This document shows, piece after piece, positions 4,682 to 46,599 of a stretch of DNA of 64,000 nt. Source of the stretch: Streptomyces mobaraensis (lineage in GTDB: Bacteria; Actinomycetota; Actinomycetes; Streptomycetales; Streptomycetaceae); assembly GCF_020099395.1 (NCBI RefSeq), contig NZ_CP083590.1, forward strand, positions 2,046,001-2,110,000, given 5' to 3'. Every line of letters starts with the position of its first letter. The first letter of the stretch is position 1. The position numbers were made by a program, and so were the translations under genes. Under the pieces are notes generated by a model. It made no database searches, was not told where the DNA came from, and saw nothing but the letters and a program-made list of their open reading frames with translations.

Positions 4682-6388
4682 CTACCGCAGGGCCCGGATC
4701 CGCTCGACCGCCGCGTCCGCGGACAGCTCCTCCCGCTCCCCCGTGCGCCGGTCCTTGAGCTCCACCCGGCCGTCCGGCGCGCCGCGGCCGACCGTCAGCA
4801 GTGTGGGGACGCCGAGCAGTTCGGCGTCGGCGAACTTGACGCCCGCCGAGACGCCCGCGCGGTCGTCGAGCAGGACGCGGACGCCCGCGTCGGACAGCCG
4901 GGCGGTGAGGGCGTCGGCCAGTTCCGCCTGAACGGCCTTGCCGGCGACGACGATGTGGACGTCGGCGGGGGCGATCTCGCGGGACCAGCACAGGCCGCGT
5001 CCGTCGTGGGTCTGCTCGGCGAGGGCGGCGACGGCGCGGGAGACGCCGATGCCGTAGCACCCCATGGTGACGCGGACCGGCTTGCCCTCGGGGCCGAGGA
5101 CGTCGAAGCCGAAGACGTCCGCGTATTTGCGGCCCAGTTGGAAGATGTGGCCGATCTCGATGGCCCGTCCCAGCCGGAGGCCGGTGCCGCAGCGCGGGCA
5201 GGGGTCGCCGGGTTCGACGACGACGGCGTCGAGGTACCGGTCGACGGTGAAGTCCCGGCCGCAGACGACGTTCCGCGCGTGGGTGCCGGGCCGGTTGGCG
5301 CCGGTGATCCAGGCCGTGCCGGGCGCCACCCGGGGGTCGGCCCAGTACGGGACGGGCAGCTTCTGCGGGCCGACGTAGCCGCGCACCAGGTCGGGGTGGG
5401 AGGCGAAGTCGTCGGCGGTGACGAGCTCCACCTCGGCGGGGGCCAGCCGTTCGGCGACCCGGCCGAGGTCGACCTCGCGGTCGCCGGGTACGCCGATGGC
5501 GACGATCTCGCCGTCGACCTTGACGAGGACGTTCTTGAGCACCGCCGAGGCGGGCACGTCCAGGAGGGCGGCGAGGGTGTCGATGGTGGGGGTGTCGGGG
5601 GTGTCCAGTTCCTCCAGCGGCCCGTGACCGGTGGGGTCGGCGGGACCGACGGCCGTGGTGACGGCCTCCGTGTTGGCGGCGTAGCCGCAGTCCGGGCAGT
5701 CGGCGAAGGTGTCCTCCCCCGCGTCGGCCGGGGCCAGGAACTCCTCCGAGGCGGAGCCGCCCATGGCGCCGGACACGGCGGAGACCACGCGGTGGTCGAG
5801 CCCGAGGCGCTCGAAGATCCGCAGGTACGCCTCGCGGTGGCGGCGGTAGGACTCCGCGAGCCCCTCGTCGTCGAGGTCGAAGGAGTAGGCGTCCTTCATC
5901 AGGAACTCGCGCCCGCGCAGCACCCCGGAGCGCGGCCGGGCCTCGTCCCGGTACTTGTTCTGGATCTGGTAGAGGGTGACCGGGAGATCCTTGTAGGACG
6001 CGCACTGGTCCTTGGCGGTGAGGGTGAAGACCTCCTCGTGCGTGGGACCGAGCAGGTACTCGGCACCCTTGCGGTCGCGGAGCCGGAAGAGGAGTTCGCC
6101 GTACTCCGTCCAGCGGCCGCTGGCCTCGTAGGGCTCCCGGGGCAGCAGGGCGGGCAGCAGGACCTCCTGGCCGCCGATGGCGTCCATCTCCTCGCGCACC
6201 ACCCGGGCGACGTTGTCGAGCACCTTCTTGCCGAGCGGCAGCCACGTCCACACCCCGGCGGAGCTCCGGCGGACGTAGCCGGCGCGGACCAGCAGCCGGT
6301 GGCCCGGCGTCTCGGCGTCGGCCGGGTCGTCGCGCAGGGTTCTGAGCATCAGCTGGGAGAGACGCAGGGGGCGCTGTACGGGTGACAT
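4682..6388 (-). CDS. proS: Prolyl-tRNA synthetase (bacterial type, with editing insertion)
   Basis: A 568-residue bacterial-type ProRS that charges tRNA-Pro. The N-terminal class II core contains [29 protein letters not shown] and the motif 2 region [14 protein letters not shown] with [17 protein letters not shown]. An INS/YbaK-like editing insertion follows in the middle ([19 protein letters not shown]). Motif 3 is [17 protein letters not shown]-terminal anticodon-binding domain contains [15 protein letters not shown]. The length fits the family. The start is ATG at 6388 ([15 protein letters not shown]); the open frame continues upstream but without homology. It is followed upstream by two acetyltransferase genes on the same strand. 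Confidence 0.96.
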
Positions 6389-6444
6389 GCCCGGAGGGTA
6401 GCGGTGGGCCGGGCGGAGTTCACCGGGTTTTCCGGGCCGGTCCG

Positions 6445-6978
6445 TCAGCCGAGCAGCGGCAGTTCCGCGCCCATCACCACGTACGGGCTGACGGCGCTGG
6501 GGAAGACCACCTGCCGGGCCAGGTCCCGGTAGCCGAGCTTGCGGTAGAGCGCGCGGGCCGGGCTCTCGACGTCGATGGCGGAGAGGATCGAGCGCGGTTC
6601 CGCCGCGTCCGCCGTGAGCGCGGTGATGAGCGCCCGGCCGATCCGCCGGTTCTGGAAGGCGGGGTGGACGTGCAGTTCGGTGATGACGAAGGCGTCGTCC
6701 AGCCACTCCTCCGTCCCCGTGGCCCGCAGGTACGGCTCGACGACGGTGGACCACCAGTGCCCGCGGTCGTTGGGCATGCCGTAGACGAAGCCGACGAGCC
6801 GGCCGCCCGGTGTCGTCGCGCCGAGGGCGCGGGCGCCGGGGCTGGTGAGGTGGCGGAGCACGATGTGGCGCCGGACGCCGACCTCCTCGGCGGTGAGTCC
6901 GAAGGCCACGGCCTGCACGGCCAGCGCGTCGTCGACCCGCGCGGCGAGGTCCAGCGGGCCGACCACGATGTCATCCAT
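6445..6978 (-). CDS. GNAT-family N-acetyltransferase
   Basis: A 177-residue single-domain acetyltransferase. The acetyl-CoA-binding core is visible as [23 protein letters not shown] (the V-x-P-x-xQ-x-RR-x-GRA motif A) and [10 protein letters not shown] (motif B). Earlier, [18 protein letters not shown] forms the central strands. The substrate cannot be told from sequence. It lies 56 bp downstream of the proS start on the same strand and 54 bp from the next acetyltransferase, so the three may be co-transcribed. Confidence 0.88.
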
Positions 6979-7032
6979 GCGGGGAGGCTACCCGGCCGGC
7001 CGGTCTTCCCGCCGGGCGCGGGAGGCGGTGGA

Positions 7033-7878
7033 TCAGAAGAGGACGCTCATGAAGGCGCCGGTCTCCCGGAAGCCGACCCGGCGGTAGGCGGCGCGCGCGG
7101 CGGCGTTGTAGTCGTTGACGTAGAGGCTGACCACCGGGGCGACCTCGCGGAGGGCGTGGTCCAGGACGGCGGCCATGCCGGTCACGGACAGCCCGCGGCC
7201 CCGGTGTTCGGGGGCGACCCAGACGCCCTGGATCTGGCAGGCGCGGGCGGTGGCGGCGCCGATCTCGGCCTTGAAGACGACCTTGCCGTCCTCTATCCGA
7301 GCGAACGAGCGGCCGGAGCCCACCAGTTCGGCCACGCGCGCCTGGTAGAGGAGCCCGCCGTCGCCGGCCAGCGGTGAGACGCCGACCTCCTCGGTGAACA
7401 TGGCGACGCAGGCCGGGAGGATCAGCTCCATCTCGTCCTTGCGGACGCGGCGGACCAGCGGGTCGGGGTCGACGTCGGCGGGCATCGAGCGGGTGACCAT
7501 GAGCGGCTGGTGGGCGCGGACCTCACGGGCCGGGCCCCAGTGCGGCTCCAGCAGCGACCAGAGGGCGGCGGTGGACTCGGCGGGGCCGACGATGGAGGAG
7601 CAGCGGCGGCCGGCCCGGCGGGCGCGGTCGGCGAAAGCGCGGACGGCCTCGGGCCCGGCGCAGATGGGGACGAGGTTGGCGCCGGCGTAGCAGAGCGCCT
7701 CCAAGCGCCCGAGGACGTACCAGCCCCACATCTCGCCGCCGAGCCGCCAGGGGTCGAGGCCGGCGACCTGCACGCGGGCGGCGACGAAGGCGTTGGCGAC
7801 GGGGTCGCGGTCGAGTACCGCGAGGGCGGCGTCGAGGTCGCCGGGTTCCAGGACCTTGGTCGTGGTCGTCGTCAACAC
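7033..7878 (-). CDS. DUF4081 plus GNAT acetyltransferase
   Basis: A 281-residue protein with two parts. The N-terminal half (about 15-125) matches the actinobacterial DUF4081 module that precedes a GNAT domain: LDRDPVANAFVAARVQVAGLDPWRLGG and FADRARRAGRRCSSIVGP. The C-terminal half is a GNAT domain with GVWVAPEHRGRGLSVTGMAAVLDHAL as the acetyl-CoA motif and YNAAARAAYRRVGFRETG as motif B. The substrate is unknown. The start is GTG at 7878. It sits between ispG upstream and the smaller GNAT gene downstream. Confidence 0.88.
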   Translation of the reverse strand: MLTTTTTKVLEPGDLDAALAVLDRDPVANAFVAARVQVAGLDPWRLGGEMWGWYVLGRLEALCYAGANLVPICAGPEAVRAFADRARRAGRRCSSIVGPAESTAALWSLLEPHWGPAREVRAHQPLMVTRSMPADVDPDPLVRRVRKDEMELILPACVAMFTEEVGVSPLAGDGGLLYQARVAELVGSGRSFARIEDGKVVFKAEIGAATARACQIQGVWVAPEHRGRGLSVTGMAAVLDHALREVAPVVSLYVNDYNAAARAAYRRVGFRETGAFMSVLF

Positions 7879-7965
7879 GTGTGCGGTTGCCTCACCGTCG
7901 CGGCCGGGGGCCGGGAAAACAGATTCCTGGCACTTTACCTCTCCGGTCCGGCGCCTACCCCGTCC

Positions 7966-7993
7966 CGGCGGGAGGACGACGGGCCTCCCGCCG
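7966..7993 (-). terminator. Hairpin after ispG
   Basis: A 10-bp G+C stem (CGGCGGGAGG at 7966-7975 with CCTCCCGCCG at 7984-7993) and an 8-base loop, starting 15 bases past the ispG stop on the minus strand. Likely a terminator separating ispG from the acetyltransferases, although there is no strong U tract. Confidence 0.6.
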
Positions 7994-8007
7994 CGGGGTC
8001 GCGTACG

Positions 8008-9165
8008 TCAGCCGGCGACGCTGACCTCGGGCTCGCCGGAGGCGACGCCGTCCTTCTCCATCTGGGCGGCGATCTTCATGGCCTCTTCGATGAGGGTCTC
8101 GACGATCTTCGACTCGGGGACGGTCTTGATGACCTCGCCCTTCACGAAGATCTGCCCCTTGCCGTTGCCGGACGCCACACCCAGGTCCGCCTCGCGCGCC
8201 TCACCCGGACCGTTGACCACACAGCCCATCACCGCCACGCGCAGCGGCACCTCCATGCCCTCCAGACCCGCGGTCACCTCGTCCGCCAGCTTGTAGACGT
8301 CCACCTGCGCCCGCCCGCACGACGGGCACGAGACGATCTCCAGCCGGCGCTGGCGCAGGTTGAGCGACTCCAGGATCTGGATGCCGACCTTGACCTCCTC
8401 CGCCGGCGGCGCCGACAGCGAGACGCGGATGGTGTCGCCGATGCCCTCCGCCAGCAGCGCACCGAACGCCACCGCCGACTTGATCGTGCCCTGGAAGGCG
8501 GGACCGGCCTCGGTGACGCCCAGGTGCAGCGGGTAGTCGCACTGGGCGGCGAGCTGCCGGTAGGCGTTGACCATGACGACGGGGTCGTTGTGCTTGACGG
8601 AGATCTTGATGTCGCGGAAGCCGTGCTCCTCGAACAGCGACGCCTCCCACAGCGCCGACTCCACCAGCGCCTCGGGCGTGGCCTTGCCGTACTTCTGGAG
8701 CAGACGGCGGTCGAGCGACCCGGCGTTCACCCCGATGCGGATCGGGGTGCCGGCCTCGGAGGCCGCCTTGGCGATCTCCTTGACCTTGTCGTCGAACTGC
8801 TTGATGTTGCCCGGGTTCACCCGCACCGCCGCACAGCCCGCGTCGATCGCCGCGAACACGTACTTCGGCTGGAAGTGGATGTCCGCGATCACCGGGATCT
8901 GCGACTTCGCCGCGATCACCTTCAACGCGTCCGCGTCATCCTGCGTCGGGCACGCCACCCGCACGATCTGGCAGCCCGACGCCGTCAGCTCCGCGATCTG
9001 CTGGAGCGTCGCACCGATGTCCGACGTCCGCGTCGTCGTCATCGACTGCACCGACACCGGGGCGTCCCCGCCCACGGCCACGGATCCGACCTGGATCTTG
9101 CGGCTGACGCGGCGGTCGGCGAGCTTGGTCGGAACGGACGGCATTCCCAGCGAAATCGCGGTCAT
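8008..9165 (-). CDS. ispG: 4-hydroxy-3-methylbut-2-enyl diphosphate synthase (flavodoxin), IspG/GcpE
   Basis: A 385-residue IspG, the [4Fe-4S] enzyme that converts MEcPP to HMBPP in the MEP isoprenoid pathway. Family motifs are [15 protein letters not shown] near the N-terminus, the TIM-barrel segments [11 protein letters not shown] and [12 protein letters not shown], and the cluster cysteines in SCPSCGR and [11 protein letters not shown]. The start is ATG at 9165 ([19 protein letters not shown]); the open frame extends further but without homology. It lies downstream of rseP and dxr, the second MEP-pathway gene here, which is the conserved Streptomyces order. Confidence 0.96.
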
Positions 9166-9342
9166 CTGGCGAGCAACCCCAAGGTCTGAATCATGGTCCC
9201 GAGATCGGCGGGCTCCGGTCTCCGAGATTACGGCAAGCGCCTCCCCGGAAGCACATCCCGCCCCGAACACCGCACGAACAAGCGGTGGCGGGACACGTTC
9301 CGCGCGCGGGGGGCGCGGGGCGGGGGGCGAACCCCCGCCCCC

Positions 9343-10644
9343 TCACGTCAGGCGCACCGGATTCACCACATCGGCCACGAGGACGAGCAGGGTGAAGCAG
9401 ATGAAGATACCCGCGACGACGTAGGCGACCGGCATCAGCTTGGCCACGTCGAAGGGGCCGGGGTCCGGGCGGCGGAACACCTTGGCGAACATCCGGCGCA
9501 CCGACTCCCAGAGGGCGCCGGCGATGTGCCCGCCGTCCAGGGGCAGCAGCGGCAGCATGTTGAAGAGGAACAGCGAGAGGTTGAAGCCGGCCACCAGGGT
9601 CAGCATCAGCGCGATCTGCTGGGACGGCGGGATGTCAAGGGTGAACACCTCGCCGCCGACCCGGGCCGCGCCGACGACGCCCATCGGGGAGTCGGCCTTG
9701 CGCTCGCCGCCGTCGAAGGCCGCGTTCCAGAGGTCGGGGATCTTGCCGGGCAGGGCGACCAGGGACTCGACGCCGGACTGGACCATGTCGCCCATCCGGT
9801 CGACCGACTGGCCGAAGGACTGCTGGACGATGCCGCTGGCGGGCGCGAAGCCGAGGAAGCCGGCGGTGATGTACTCGCCGCGGACGGGGTTGCCGTCGCC
9901 GTCGTACTTCTGGACCTGGTTCTCGATCAGGTTGGCGTGCAGGTCGAGGCGCTTGCCGTCGCGCTCGACGGTGATCGTCGCCGGTCCGGTGGTCTTCCGG
10001 ATGTCCTTCTGGATCGACTTCCAGTCGGGCGTCGGGTGCCCGTTGAACGCGACGATCTTGTCCTTGGCCCGCAGGCCGGCCGCGTTGGCCGGGGACTTCG
10101 GGGCGTCCTTGGGACAGGTGTCGGTGGCGCTGGACGCCTTGACGACGCAGTCCTGGACCGAGCCGACCTGCGTCGTCTCGGTGCGGACGCCGAAGGTCAT
10201 CAGCACGCCGAGGAAGAGCACGACGGCCAGGATCAGGTTCATGAACGGCCCGGCGAACATCACGATCACGCGCTTCCAGGGCTTGCGCGTGTAGAACAGC
10301 CGGCTCTCGTCGCCCGGCTGGAGCTCCTCGAACGCGGCCGACCGGGCGTCCTCGATCATGCCGCGCCAAGGGGACGTGGACCGGGCCGCGATCTTGCCGT
10401 CCTCGCCGGGCGGGAACATGCCGATCATGCGGATGTAGCCGCCGAGCGGGATCGCCTTGATGCCGTACTCGGTGTCGCCCTTCTTCCTGGAGAGGATCGT
10501 CGGGCCGAAGCCGACCATGTACTGCGGCACCCGGATGCCGAACATCTTGGCGGTCGAGAGGTGGCCCAGCTCGTGCCAGGCGATGGAGAACAGCAGGCCC
10601 ACCACGAAGACGACTATCCCGAGGACCGTCATCAGAAGGGTCAT
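9343..10644 (-). CDS. rseP: Site-2 protease (M50 zinc metalloprotease), RseP-like
   Basis: A 433-residue membrane protease for regulated intramembrane proteolysis. The zinc motif HELGH is at residues 24-28 in the first membrane helix, and the second catalytic motif is in [17 protein letters not shown] near the C-terminus. A single PDZ domain lies between (about 190-260, [20 protein letters not shown]). Three to four membrane segments are visible. The start ATG at 10644 overlaps the dxr stop (ATGA). The dxr-rseP-ispG order is conserved in actinobacteria. The substrate is probably an anti-sigma factor, which is an inference. Confidence 0.93.
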
Positions 10645-11921
10645 GCGCGGGCCTCCGAGGTCGCTCCGGCCGTACGGACCGCGGTTGCCGTACGCGCCAC
10701 CAGTTCGCGGGCCCGGGCACGGGCCCAGGTCTCCGCCTGCAGGACGTCCGGGACCGTGAGGAGGGTTCCCCGGTCGGGGGTGCCGTGCTCCGCCACGACC
10801 TCGGCGACGGTGTCCACGATGCCATTGAACGGCAGGCCGCCGGAGAGGAACGCGTCGACGCACTCCTCGTTCGCGGCGTTGAACACCGCCGGGGCCGTGC
10901 CGCCCAGGGAACCCACGTGCCGGGCGAGCGCGACGGAGGGGAACGCCTCCTCGTCCAGCGGGAAGAACTCCCAGGTGGACGCCTTCGACCAGTCGAAGGC
11001 CGGGGCGGCGTCGGGCACCCGCTCGGGCCAGCCGAGGCCGATGGCGATCGGGCCGCGCATGTCCGGCGGGGTGGCCTGGGCGAGCGTGGAGCCGTCGGTG
11101 AACTCGACCATGGAGTGCACATACGACTGGGGGTGGACGACGACCTCGATGCGGTCGAAGGGGATGTCGTAGAGCAGGTGGGCCTCGATCACCTCCAGCC
11201 CCTTGTTGACCAGTGTCGCGGAGTTGATCGTGATGACCGGGCCCATCGCCCAGGTGGGGTGCGCCAGGGCGTCGGCGGGGGTGACGGCGGCCAGCTGCTC
11301 CTTGGTACGGCCGCGGAACGGACCGCCGGAGGCCGTCACCACCAGCTTGCGGACCTCGCTGCGGGCACCGCCCAGCAGCGCCTGGAACAGCGCCGCGTGC
11401 TCGGAGTCCACCGGCACGATCTGCCCGGGCTTGGCGACGGCCTTGACCAGCGGGCCGCCGACGATCAGCGACTCCTTGTTCGCCAGCGCCAGCGACCGGC
11501 CGGCCTCCAGGGCCGCCAGCGTCGGCGCCAGACCGATCGAACCCGTGATGCCGTTGAGCACCGTGTGGCACTCGCTCCGGGCCAGCTCGGTGGCCGCGTC
11601 CGGGCCCGCCAGCACCTCCGGCAGCGGCCGGGCGCCGTACCGCGCGGCCAGCGCCGCCCGCAGCGCCGGAGCCGCCTCCTCCCGCGCCACGGCCACCGCC
11701 CGTACGTCCAGCCGGTGCGCCTGCTCGGCGAGCAGCTCGACCCGGCCGCCGGCGGCGGACAGGGCCGTCACCGTGAACCGGTCGGGGTTGCGCAGCACGA
11801 GGTCGATGGCCTGGGTCCCGATCGAACCGGTCGAACCGAGGATCACGATCTCGCGCGGGCCACCGCTCCGGTGCGTGGGGGCGGAGTAGCGCAGATGCGG
11901 GTCAGCGAGGGAGTCGGTCAT
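10641..11921 (-). CDS. dxr: 1-deoxy-D-xylulose 5-phosphate reductoisomerase
   Basis: A 426-residue DXP reductoisomerase, which makes MEP from DXP with NADPH. The Rossmann motif GSTGSIG is at residues 29-35. Other conserved stretches are [34 protein letters not shown] and [14 protein letters not shown] (catalytic and metal regions). The start ATG at 11921 is directly preceded by a GGGGGG Shine-Dalgarno-like run that is itself the 3' arm of a short hairpin. It is the first gene of the dxr-rseP unit. Confidence 0.96.
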
Positions 11922-42608: not shown

Positions 42609-43652
42609 TCAGCCGCCCAGCACTACCACGTGCTCGGCGTCGAACGCGACCCCTGCCCGTGCTCCCACCTCCGGCGCGTGCGCCAGCGCGCACGCCGCCT
42701 GGAGCGCCGGACCCCGCTCCGGACGGAGCGAGAGCAGCACGTGGTCGCCCCGGAAGGTCCGGGCGGTGACCTCGCACGGCAGTCCGTCCGCCACCAGCCG
42801 GACGCCACCCGGCCGTACCAGGAGCGAGCAGGGGCCCTCCGGGGAACCGGCCGGGACGGGCACCTTGCCCCACGGGGTGTCGGCCCGGTCGCCGGTGACG
42901 GTCGCGGGGACGACGTTGTCGAAGCCGAGGAAGCGGGCCACGAACTCGGAGGCGGGCCGCCGCCAGACGTCCAGGGGCGTGCCCTGCTGGGCGATCCGGC
43001 CGTCCCGCATCACCACCACCCGGTCGGCGAGCGCGAACGCCTCGCCCTGGTCGTGGGTGACCGCCAGCACGGTCGTGCCGAGCCGTCCGAAGAGCTGCCG
43101 CAGCTCGGTCACCAGCCGCTCGCGCAGGCTCCGGTCCAGCTGCCCGAGGGGCTCGTCGAGCATCAGCAGCCGGGGGCTCGGGGCGAGCGCCCGGGCCAGC
43201 GCGACGCGCTGCTGCTCGCCGCCGGACAGCGCCGCGACGGACCGCCGCCCGGCGCCCGGCAGGCCCACGAGATCGAGGAGTTCGGCGACCCGCCGCCGGG
43301 CCTCGTCGCGTCCGGCACCACGCGTGCGAAGCCCGAAGGCGACGTTCGCGGCCACGTCCCGCTGCGGGAAGAGCTGGTGGTCCTGGAACATCAGCCCCAC
43401 GCCCCGCCGGTGCACGGGCACCCCGCCGACGTCCTCGCCGGACAGGAACACCCGCCCGGCGTCGGCCCGCTGGAGCCCGGCGACCACCCGCAGCAGCGTG
43501 GACTTGCCGCTGCCGCTGGGGCCGAGGACGCAGACGACCTCGTGCTCGGCGACGTCGAGGCCGACGGCGTCCAGGACAGTCCGGTCGCCGAACCGGACGG
43601 TGACGCCCTCCAGACGCAGCATCGGAGCAGGCAGCATCGGAGCGGACGGCAT
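42609..43652 (-). CDS. thiQ: Thiamine ABC transporter ATP-binding protein
   Basis: A 347-residue ATPase of the ThiQ/FbpC type. Walker A is GPSGSGKST, the Q-loop LMFQDHQLFPQRDV, the signature LSGGEQQRVALARAL, Walker B LLMLDEPLGQLD and the H-switch VTHDQGEAFALAD. A C-terminal TOBE-like part follows. All motifs are intact. The start at ATG 43652 abuts the thiP stop (TGATG overlap). The thiamine assignment rests on the TPP riboswitch ahead of thiB in the same operon. The open frame runs further upstream into thiP, but only because of the scrambled block there. Confidence 0.92.
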   Translation of the reverse strand: MPSAPMLPAPMLRLEGVTVRFGDRTVLDAVGLDVAEHEVVCVLGPSGSGKSTLLRVVAGLQRADAGRVFLSGEDVGGVPVHRRGVGLMFQDHQLFPQRDVAANVAFGLRTRGAGRDEARRRVAELLDLVGLPGAGRRSVAALSGGEQQRVALARALAPSPRLLMLDEPLGQLDRSLRERLVTELRQLFGRLGTTVLAVTHDQGEAFALADRVVVMRDGRIAQQGTPLDVWRRPASEFVARFLGFDNVVPATVTGDRADTPWGKVPVPAGSPEGPCSLLVRPGGVRLVADGLPCEVTARTFRGDHVLLSLRPERGPALQAACALAHAPEVGARAGVAFDAEHVVVLGG

Positions 43653-45330
43653 CAGAACTCCCCCGTGCGGTCGGTACGTACGCGTTCCAGCACCAGCAGC
43701 GCCACGGCGCACACCAGCATCAGGATCGTGCTCAGGGCCATCGCCTGCCCGTAGTTGAGCTCCCCGGGACGGCCCAGCAGCCGGGCCACGGCCACGGGGA
43801 GCGTGGGGTTGTCGGGGCGGGCGATGAAGACGGTGGCGCCGAACTCGCCCAGGGAGACGGCGAAGGCGAAGCCCGCCGCGACCGCCAGGGCCCGGCCGAC
43901 CATCGGCAGGTCCACTCCGCCAACCCGTGTCGGACGCGCCGAGCACGTCCTGATCGTGCCTCCGCAGCCGCGGATCGACTGCGTCGTGCACGTCAGCATC
44001 GTGCTTGCTCACTACGGCACTCCGTACTATCGCCTGGGCCATCGGTACCTGATCCTTCGTAGCTCCGCTGTCCTGCGGCGTTTCTCGTCCAGGCGATCAC
44101 AGTGCCGCGCCGTTTCGCGGTCACGTTTCGGAGGTGCTTCCAGCGGCAGCATCTCGTTTAGCGCAGTCGCGCCCGCTTTACTTTTAGCCGGCTCTTCTTC
44201 TTCGTCGCCGTGCGTCGCGGCGGCATTCACTTAGCCGTCTTCGACGACGACGGGCGATGACGGTGGCCGCGAGGCCGTACGCCGCGTGTTGCTCGCTCGC
44301 CTCCGCGACGACGCCGAGCAACGCCGTCGTCCCGCCCCGTAGGCGAGCGCGTGAAGGCGTGCCGTAGCCGTCTGGCCGTCGACGTCGCTAGCTCGAGTCA
44401 CCGCGCGAGCGGCTGCCGTAGCTGCGCGGCTCCCTGGGCTCAGCTTTCGGCTAGCAGCTTCTGGGCGCCGCCGCGAGTCGGCGCGGCGCGTCGTGCGGCG
44501 GCGCGTCCTCAGCCCAGTCGGACTCGCAGCTCGTTTCGCACGGTCCCGCGCTGTCACCAGCTCAGCGCGTCGGCGACGGCGGCGTCCTGCGCGTGATGAC
44601 GTACGGCCTTCCCCTACGTAGTACGAGCAGTACGGCGGTCTGCCGGTACATCTTACTCACCCCAGCTCGATCGTACCCTGTCGCTCGAAGTACGCCGCGC
44701 TCGATTCGTTCAGGTGTAAAGGTGAACTAGCAAATCCTCAGCGCCGCGCGGCGACGGCCGTCGCGTCAGTCAGGTGTTAGGCGCCGCCAGTCGTCGTACC
44801 GGCTGAAACTCTCCGAGCACCCGCGCGGCCTCCTCCTGCCGGGGGTCGAGCTGCGCCCAGAGCCCGCCGACGGTCCGGACGACCACGGCGTAGTTGAAGA
44901 AGACGTGGGCGAGCAGGATCGCCCAGACGGAGTTGTCGAGCCGGACGCCCCACAGTTCGTCGAGCAGTCCCCGCCGCCCGAGCAGCGCGAGGAAGGCGGA
45001 GCCGGCCACCACGGTGGGCAGCACGAACGGGACGGTGACGACCGCCCGCAGCAGCCCCTTGCCGGGGAAGTCGAAGCGCGCCATGGCGTACGCGCCGGGG
45101 AGCGCGAGCACCAGCGTGAGCGCCGTGGAGGCCGCCGCCTGCCAGGTGGTGAACCACAGGACGTGCCCGGTTGCCGGGTCGGTGAGCACCTCGCCGATGC
45201 GGCCGAACCGCCACCGTCCGTCCGCCTTCAATCCCCGCGTGACGATCGCGGCCACCGGGTAGGCGAAGAAGAGGCCGAAGAAGGCGAGCGGGACGGCCAT
45301 CAGGCCGAGGCGGACGCCCGTCCCCCGCAC
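43652..45330 (-). pseudogene. thiP: Thiamine ABC transporter permease, disrupted by a scrambled central block
   Basis: The 5' part (start GTG 45330, AAGGA upstream) encodes intact ThiP-like sequence: LMAVPLAFFGLFFAYPVAAIV, and VVRTVGGLWAQLDPRQEEAARVLG ending near 44814. The 3' part from 43915 encodes VDLPMVGRALAVAAGFAFAVSLGEFGATVFIARPDNPTLPVAVARLLGRPGEL to the stop at 43652. The 900 bp between have many stops and frameshifts in all frames, yet keep the right length: the gene would have about 560 codons, normal for a two-module ThiP. The total length is not a multiple of three. If the sequence is correct, thiamine import would be lost; if it is an assembly fault, the gene is intact. Confidence 0.85.
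43916..44813. other. Scrambled, lower-G+C block inside thiP
   Basis: About 900 bp with abrupt edges. Short fragments still match a ThiP gene in order on the minus strand: a YRQTA codon string near 44635-44652, an IAQAI-like string at 44029-44049, VDPRLR at 43961-43981 and VLGAS at 43933-43949. Between them are dense substitutions and indels. Three 60-base rows that I counted (44041-44100, 44641-44760) are about 60-62% G+C, far below the flanks. GTAC, TACG and CGTA strings are visibly over-frequent. No inverted terminal repeats, target duplication, transposase or RNA gene can be seen. Confidence 0.8.
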
Positions 45331-45350
45331 TCCGCGGTCCTTCGGTGCGG

Positions 45351-46448
45351 TTACTTCAGGACGATCGAGGACCATGCCTTGACCCACTGATCACGGTTCT
45401 TCGCGATCTTCTCGGGGGCGAGCGTCTGCGGGGTGTCGACCGTCGCGCCGAACTTGGTGAACAGCTCGGGCAGCTTGGCGTCCGTCACCACCGGCTTGAC
45501 GTACATGCTCAGCGGCACGTCCTCCTGGAACCGCTTGCTCAGCAGGAAGTCCAGCAGCGCCTTGCCGCCCTCGGCGTTCTTCGCGCCCTTGAGCAGCCCG
45601 GCGTACTCGGTCTGCCGGAAGCAGGTGCCGGTCGCGACGCCGGTCGGCGCCTCGTCCGCCGACTTCGGCGGCGTCTTCATGCCCTGCACCTCGGCCGGCG
45701 GGCTGGACGCGTAAGAGACGACGAGCGGCCGGTCGCCCTTGGCCTTGCGGCCGGCGGCGGAGCCGGAGAAGCGGTCGTTGTACGCCTGCTCCCAGCCGTC
45801 GACGACCTCGACGCCGTTGTCCTTGAGCTTCTTCCAGTAGTCCTGCCAGCCCTCGTCGCCGTACTTGGCGGCGGTCCCGAGCTGGAAGGCGAGGCCCGGG
45901 GAGGAGGTGGCCGCGTTCTCGGTGACCAGCAGGCCCTTGTACTCGGGCTTCACCAGGTCGTCGAGGGTCTTCGGCGGCGCCAGCTTGTGATCGGTGAAGT
46001 AGGCACGGTCGTAGTTGACGCAGATGTCACCGGAGTCCACCGGCGTCACCCGGTGCTCGGCGTCGTCGGCCCGGTACTCCTTCGCCACCCGGTCCAGGCC
46101 CTTGGCCTCGTACGGCTCGAAGATCCCGTTGTCGAGGGCGCGGGAGAGCAGCGTGTTGTCGACGCCGAAGAACACGTCACCCTGCGGGTGGCTCTTGGAG
46201 AGGATCGCCTGGTTCACGGCCCGCCCGGCGTCGCCGCTCTTGAGCGTCTTCACCTTGTAGCCGGTCCGTGCGGTGAACTCCTTGAGCACGTCCGGGGAGA
46301 CGACGAACGACTCGTGCGAGACGAGGGTGACCGTCTTGCCGCCGTCCTTCTCCTTGGCCTCGTCGGAGCCTCCGCAGGCCGCGAGGGCCGGAACGGCCAG
46401 GGCGGTGACGGCGGCGGCGCCCAGGGCACGCCGGAGGGTGGTGTTCAT
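45351..46448 (-). CDS. thiB: Thiamine ABC transporter substrate-binding lipoprotein
   Basis: A 365-residue extracellular binding protein. The signal peptide ends in a lipobox (ALAAC near residue 25), so it is lipid-anchored. The mature part is ThiB/FbpA-like: VTLVSHESFVVSPDVLKEFTARTGYKV, GDVFFGVDNTLLSRAL, VDSGDICVNYD, LVTENAATSSPGLAFQLGTAAKYG and SYASSPPAEV. The SHESF and FGVDN motifs are typical of ThiB. The start ATG at 46448 follows the TPP riboswitch directly. First gene of thiB-thiP-thiQ. Confidence 0.95.
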   Translation of the reverse strand: MNTTLRRALGAAAVTALAVPALAACGGSDEAKEKDGGKTVTLVSHESFVVSPDVLKEFTARTGYKVKTLKSGDAGRAVNQAILSKSHPQGDVFFGVDNTLLSRALDNGIFEPYEAKGLDRVAKEYRADDAEHRVTPVDSGDICVNYDRAYFTDHKLAPPKTLDDLVKPEYKGLLVTENAATSSPGLAFQLGTAAKYGDEGWQDYWKKLKDNGVEVVDGWEQAYNDRFSGSAAGRKAKGDRPLVVSYASSPPAEVQGMKTPPKSADEAPTGVATGTCFRQTEYAGLLKGAKNAEGGKALLDFLLSKRFQEDVPLSMYVKPVVTDAKLPELFTKFGATVDTPQTLAPEKIAKNRDQWVKAWSSIVLK

Positions 46449-46457
46449 GGTCGAGCT

Positions 46458-46545
46458 GACTCCCTACGCCGGTACTAACCGGATCAGGTCCGAGGGTCTG
46501 CGGCGCGGGCCGCACTCTCAGCGCTGTGTGCGCTCCCCTGTCGGA
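46458..46545 (-). promoter_or_regulatory. TPP riboswitch (THI element) ahead of thiB
   Basis: On the minus strand the conserved THI-box strings are in order: GGGGAGC, CTGAGAGTGCGG, AGACCCT, GGACCTGATCCGGTTAGTACC and CGTAGGGAGTCA. Binding of thiamine diphosphate folds this RNA and represses the genes behind it. The closing GTAGGGAG is also the best Shine-Dalgarno candidate for thiB (about 13 bases from ATG), so control is probably at translation by masking that site. A -10-like TACAAAT lies at 46552-46558 just upstream. Confidence 0.93.
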
Positions 46546-46599
46546 TTGTTCATTTGTACGAGCGGTGCGAGTGCACCGTACCAGTGCGCCCGCCCGCTC

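Follow-up and report, generated by a model that had tools for sequence, protein, structure and literature searches.

An apparently uncorrected stretch of sequencing read within a thiamine-type transporter permease gene of the deposited Streptomyces mobaraensis chromosome

Within the window analysed here (the whole 64,000-nucleotide stretch of the Streptomyces mobaraensis chromosome, G000:C1:2046001-2110000), a ThiP-like permease gene is interrupted by a block of about 900 bases, in which the middle part of that same gene is present as a colinear but badly damaged copy. On the strength of its error pattern and of comparisons with related records, this block is very probably an assembly artefact, in which the bases of an essentially uncorrected, noisy single-molecule read stand in place of an intact thiP. 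It is almost certainly an ordinary artefact. An earlier note on this DNA had offered a bad consensus patch as the simplest explanation, a proposal now supported by the existence of an intact allele with identical flanks (protein P0005), by errors that are blind to codons and asymmetric between strands, and by an analogous patch in a plasmid record. The case matters mainly as a warning, for a gene shadow with such sharp edges may pass for new biology. Codon-position balance, strand asymmetry and intact alleles with identical flanks are features that help to tell such patches from real decay.

The source genome (G000) comprises two contigs and 7.67 Mb, including a 7.6-Mb chromosome, and comparisons were made chiefly to G051, the nearest of 60 other genomes of the genus sampled, whose ThiP is P0001. 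The permease gene lies on the minus strand in the order TPP riboswitch, thiB-like gene, thiP and ABC ATPase gene (Table 1). The thiB-like protein scores 226.7 bits against TIGR01254 (cut-off 93.4) and misses the stricter thiB model TIGR01276 (93.4 vs 317.15). The permease is called ThiP because of its setting, downstream of a TPP riboswitch and beside a thiB-like gene; the ThiP models themselves score below their NCBIfam cut-offs on P0005 (TIGR01253, 111.8 vs 395.1; NF006952, 149.3 vs 679), and in the 25 of 34 model matches considered, the sole model passed is modB (TIGR02141), narrowly, at 186.8 vs 182.6. Several database sources label relatives of the permease as iron ABC transporter permease. 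With the intact relative's counterpart of window 43652-45387 thus passing modB narrowly and the ThiP models not at all, automatic naming in this Streptomyces permease family may be unreliable.

Table 1. Features of the thiP locus in the window
Feature	Coordinates	Strand	Description	Basis
ABC transporter ATPase gene, thiQ-like	42609..43653	-	Intact; adjoins thiP	PF00005 and PF08402 above cut-offs; open frame
thiP C-terminal part	43652..43914	-	Clean, through the stop codon	87/87 residues as in P0005
Scrambled block	43915..44812	-	Noisy colinear copy of approximately codons 193-479 of the permease gene (G051 frame numbering)	G051 alignment and error tabulation
thiP N-terminal part	44813..45387	-	Clean; start ATG at ~45375 (by P0005) or GTG at 45387	188/188 residues as in P0005
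thiB-like gene, thiamine ABC transporter substrate-binding protein	45351..46448	-	Intact; 365-aa open frame	TIGR01254
TPP riboswitch	46444..46549	-	Upstream of the thiamine-type transporter operon	RF00059, 70.1 bits vs gathering score 54.3

In the alignment to G051 the edges of the block are abrupt, with outermost disturbed positions at ~43915 and ~44812, within a base or two of the 43916..44813 given earlier, and the frame between them is broken as deposited. A lone mismatch at 44818, beyond the outer edge, is probably ordinary divergence. The reverse complement of the block (rc) has two matches in G051 thiP, one over rc 161-882 (71% identity, E = 7e-63) and the other over rc 11-102, both in the correct order and on the correct strand, which bears out the reading of the block as a shadow of thiP; the strings YRQTA, VDPRLR and VLGAS, previously picked out as ThiP-like, are all present in intact ThiP. 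The earlier note had also proposed aligning the block with a relative and tabulating the changes. Of the 965 columns in the global alignment of 43915-44815 to G051, 695 match, and the others comprise 103 substitutions, 103 inserted bases and 64 deleted bases, so that thiP similarity is present and the block is indeed the same gene and not an insertion; its length is likewise close to that of the intact gene, at 901 bases vs 862 in G051. With G051 ThiP as the query, the deposited gene contains eight stops in the first match and two in the second. One earlier figure is corrected: G+C, put at about 60-62% in the rows counted, is 67% overall (61-75% across 200-bp windows), vs 77% in G051.

Simple reversal or complement as the source of the scramble is rejected, as among the matches listed the reverse complement alone matched over 700 bases, and the merely reversed or merely complemented block gave short matches only. 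No second copy of the block was seen in its own genome among the 40 of 596 candidates scored. A search for another source in 100 genomes of the genus, with four candidates scored in each, returned G051 thiP (71%) as the best match, and the next-best by E-value was a stretch of 61 bases, itself within thiP of another genome (G017). The edges had been placed at the two homologous EAA loops of the duplicated permease; at the DNA level the two edges resemble each other no more than chance pairs do (local score 22, where 95% of 300 random pairs score at most 24), and we therefore read no mechanism into their positions.

The character of the changes sets the block apart from its surroundings. Against G051, the flanks carry 25 substitutions in 681 columns (96% identity) and zero indels; the N flank (44816-45387) is 95.5% and the C flank (43640-43913) 96.35% identical in DNA, each gap-free. 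By codon position, 18 of 20 flank substitutions fall at position 3, vs an even 33/36/34 over positions 1/2/3 in the block (Fisher p 2e-6). The block holds every one of the 168 indel columns of thiP as aligned up to 45198, and the rest of the N flank beyond 45198 is likewise gap-free. The noise also has a direction: 71 of the 103 inserted bases are T vs 13 A; G>T occurs 27 times vs 0 for its strand complement C>A, and G>C 18 times vs 6 for C>G; and A>T occurs 14 times vs 1 for T>A, a skew aided by the base content of G051 (A 0.16, T 0.07). C>T (15) and G>A (8) do not differ significantly (p 0.21). Runs of at least two G number 46 in the block vs 89 in G051, and there are 27 transitions vs 76 transversions. 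At the flank rate, approximately 32 of the 103 block substitutions are expected as ordinary divergence, leaving an apparent error of ~8% net substitutions, 12% insertions and 7.5% deletions, ~28% in total. The noise is thus codon-blind, indel-rich and strand-asymmetric, and on this tabulation selection-shaped divergence is rejected as the origin of the changes. Such asymmetry fits one raw single-strand read and is not what one would expect of a duplex consensus.

An intact form of the gene exists in other records. P0005, found in a protein search in which 7997 candidates were scored and the best 120 listed, is an intact protein of 561 aa encoded on three contigs (the longest 7,633,041 bp), and, compared as protein only, it is identical to the window flanks at 188/188 residues on the N side and 87/87 on the C side. 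Seven codons in the block region differ between P0005 and G051; the block is of the P0005 type by clean substitution at two of these (356, 369) and compatible with it at codon 342, the remaining four being unreadable. The template beneath the noise was therefore probably a P0005-like allele. All 100 other Streptomyces genomes searched with G051 ThiP (G051 included) carry the gene, 99 of them in one piece as one open frame; in the exception (G050) contig ends divide it, and its frame has no stops. The best matches in these genomes are stop-free and only the present genome is broken, so that as deposited it would be annotated without a working thiamine-type transporter. Across the thiP region G051 and S. 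huiliensis align gap-free at 95.6% identity, and the region is therefore normal elsewhere. S. huiliensis was also the closest genome, at 96%, in a scan with P0005, among the best 80 loci; in its DNA alignment to the window the C flank is gap-free, and 18 columns of the N flank are gaps. A 50-base pattern taken from the flank gave no matches in the genome contig collection, from which near records were possibly left out.

How such a block might enter a finished chromosome can be envisioned in a few steps. A draft contig would have been built directly from raw reads; over a bad segment of its backbone read the consensus step would have had no usable evidence, so that the raw bases stayed. Alternatively, the segment may have been patched in by hand. 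More tentatively, the surplus of insertions over deletions, the predominance of T among the inserted bases and the excess of transversions suggest PacBio continuous-long-read chemistry. Options such as lowercasereference retain draft bases where read evidence is absent. Arrow has been used with this option, as seen in an excerpt of PMC7756384. According to the part of PMC7671305 consulted, raw PacBio reads err by insertion at 8.0%, by deletion at 3.2% and by substitution at 1.7% (~13% in total), with elevated rates of A-C and G-T transversion and with T-rich 6-mers, whereas in ONT reads each error type stands at ~4% and transitions outnumber transversions. The block shares with that PacBio profile the excess of insertions over deletions, the gain of T-rich words and the raised transversions, and in kind fits it more closely than the Nanopore one. 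Its total error (~28% vs ~13%) is roughly double the raw-read figure quoted there, which would require an exceptionally poor segment; its apparent substitution rate is also far above that of raw PacBio reads in PMC7671305, possibly in part through alignment within dense indels.

Published support for the proposed origin of the patch is general. As described in a portion of PMC8442456, Flye assemblies show local error spikes before polishing that are gone after Medaka; these resemble the present case in being a short error spike amid otherwise good bacterial sequence, and differ from it in that they vanished with polishing, whereas the thiP patch persisted into the deposited genome. Passages of two further papers note that real ONT reads contain higher-error regions (PMC11046930) and that read glitches caused trouble for some assemblers (PMC6966772).

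A closer parallel comes from the plasmid of the same species. Contig 2 of the present genome is 99.3% identical to the plasmid NZ_CP094263.1 of S. mobaraensis DSM 40587, and 157 of the 159 differing columns fall in one patch of ~370 bp (contig 2 9917-10288 vs NZ_CP094263.1 6478-6842), the remaining two being single-base indels. An FtsK/SpoIIIE-type frame is open through the patch in contig 2, which thus holds the clean copy, and its end is broken in NZ_CP094263.1. Like the thiP block, this patch is a sharp-edged, colinear shadow of an intact gene amid otherwise identical DNA; unlike it, the patch lies at another locus and in another record, is shorter (~370 bp) and has a less biased spectrum, without the strong T bias. 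The analogy suggests that faults of this sort may come up repeatedly when these GC-rich genomes are assembled. As to the plasmid itself, contig 2 (29,134 bp) ends in perfect 141-bp inverted terminal repeats, which makes a linear plasmid likely; both of its ends are missing from the DSM 40587 record, which is listed as circular, at 23,857 bp.

These comparisons bear directly on the readings in which the block would be biologically real. A sharply bounded hypermutation of ~900 bp, with dense T insertions and losses of G runs confined to one transporter gene in one strain, had been raised in the earlier note and now appears very improbable. The block is truly in the deposited sequence, has abrupt edges and is the sole one in the ~1 Mb compared, and a process acting on one strand could in principle yield a strand-biased spectrum; were this reading true, an unknown mutational process would be at work. 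However, an intact gene exists with identical protein at both flanks (P0005), the changes are dominated by inserted T and G-run loss rather than by one base change, and read errors suffice to account for them, a like patch differing between two records of one plasmid. We know of no process that gives ~28% mixed error with indels over 900 bp and none adjacent, and apparently none of the papers found on hypermutated tracts in Streptomyces concerns such a block. Diversity-generating retroelements, which alter adenines in short variable repeats without indels, resemble the case in confining dense changes to one gene segment; a target of such an element is rejected, as the block is dominated by G>T and T insertions and has 167 indel bases. 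Scarcely credible, and less likely still than hypermutation, is a real pseudogene, or a diverged homologue of foreign origin in place of the native sequence. The frame is broken as deposited, with eight and two stops in its two matches, as either would have it, but neutral decay would not halt at two points beside indel-free flanks of 96% identity, and the neighbouring frames are open. A diverged functional homologue would retain codon structure, whereas the changes here are even over codon positions, and the best match to the block in the 100 genomes of the genus (four candidates scored per genome) is thiP of G051 itself, at 71%.

Another kind of artefact is a better-placed though still unlikely candidate: data corruption, a simulated or masked stretch added after assembly, or a Nanopore segment in place of a PacBio one. 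A manual gap patch would likewise leave a single 900-bp block in ~1 Mb. Against these candidates, homopolymer loss, T-dominated insertions and 76 transversions vs 27 transitions look platform-like and non-random; against a Nanopore source in particular, transitions are the commoner change in the profile given in PMC7671305, as far as consulted, and its three error types occur at similar rates.

The preferred reading, a patch of uncorrected read, also has to be set against the quality of the chromosome around it. Three stretches of chromosome, 1.144 Mb in all, were compared with G051, of which ~1.01 Mb could be aligned (311,109 of 344,000 in the first, 345,931 and 354,447 of 400,000 each in the second and third), and divided into windows of 250 columns (5108, 5529 and 5817, respectively). 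In the first stretch, 22 windows lack codon contrast against a coding-like relative; 14 of these run consecutively through the thiP block with 66-76% identity, and identity in the remaining 8 is at least 83%. With no identity limit, the second stretch has 14 such windows, at most two in a row and all with at least 81%. At an identity limit of 82%, 1 (second stretch) and 2 (third) isolated low-contrast windows were found; with the roles of the two genomes exchanged, the counts were 2 and 1. No comparable block was found elsewhere in the ~1 Mb compared of the 7.6-Mb chromosome; the assembly is therefore otherwise good there, and by this measure the patch is a rare fault within the ~1 Mb compared.

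The addition of codon contrast was what separated the block from ordinary divergence; identity and indels by themselves flagged 58 regions in the first stretch, among which the block did not stand out. A frame-contrast scan of the genome by itself was likewise set aside, as it returned many ordinary low-contrast stretches, and the comparison with G051 was therefore needed. In a fifth-order Markov composition scan the block is absent from the 80 lowest windows, and the scan mainly flagged a region of another locus (L051). There, positions 5461-11400 form a 5.9-kb low-contrast region with 58% G+C and eight CTAG sites, which, by size and composition, is probably an rRNA operon.
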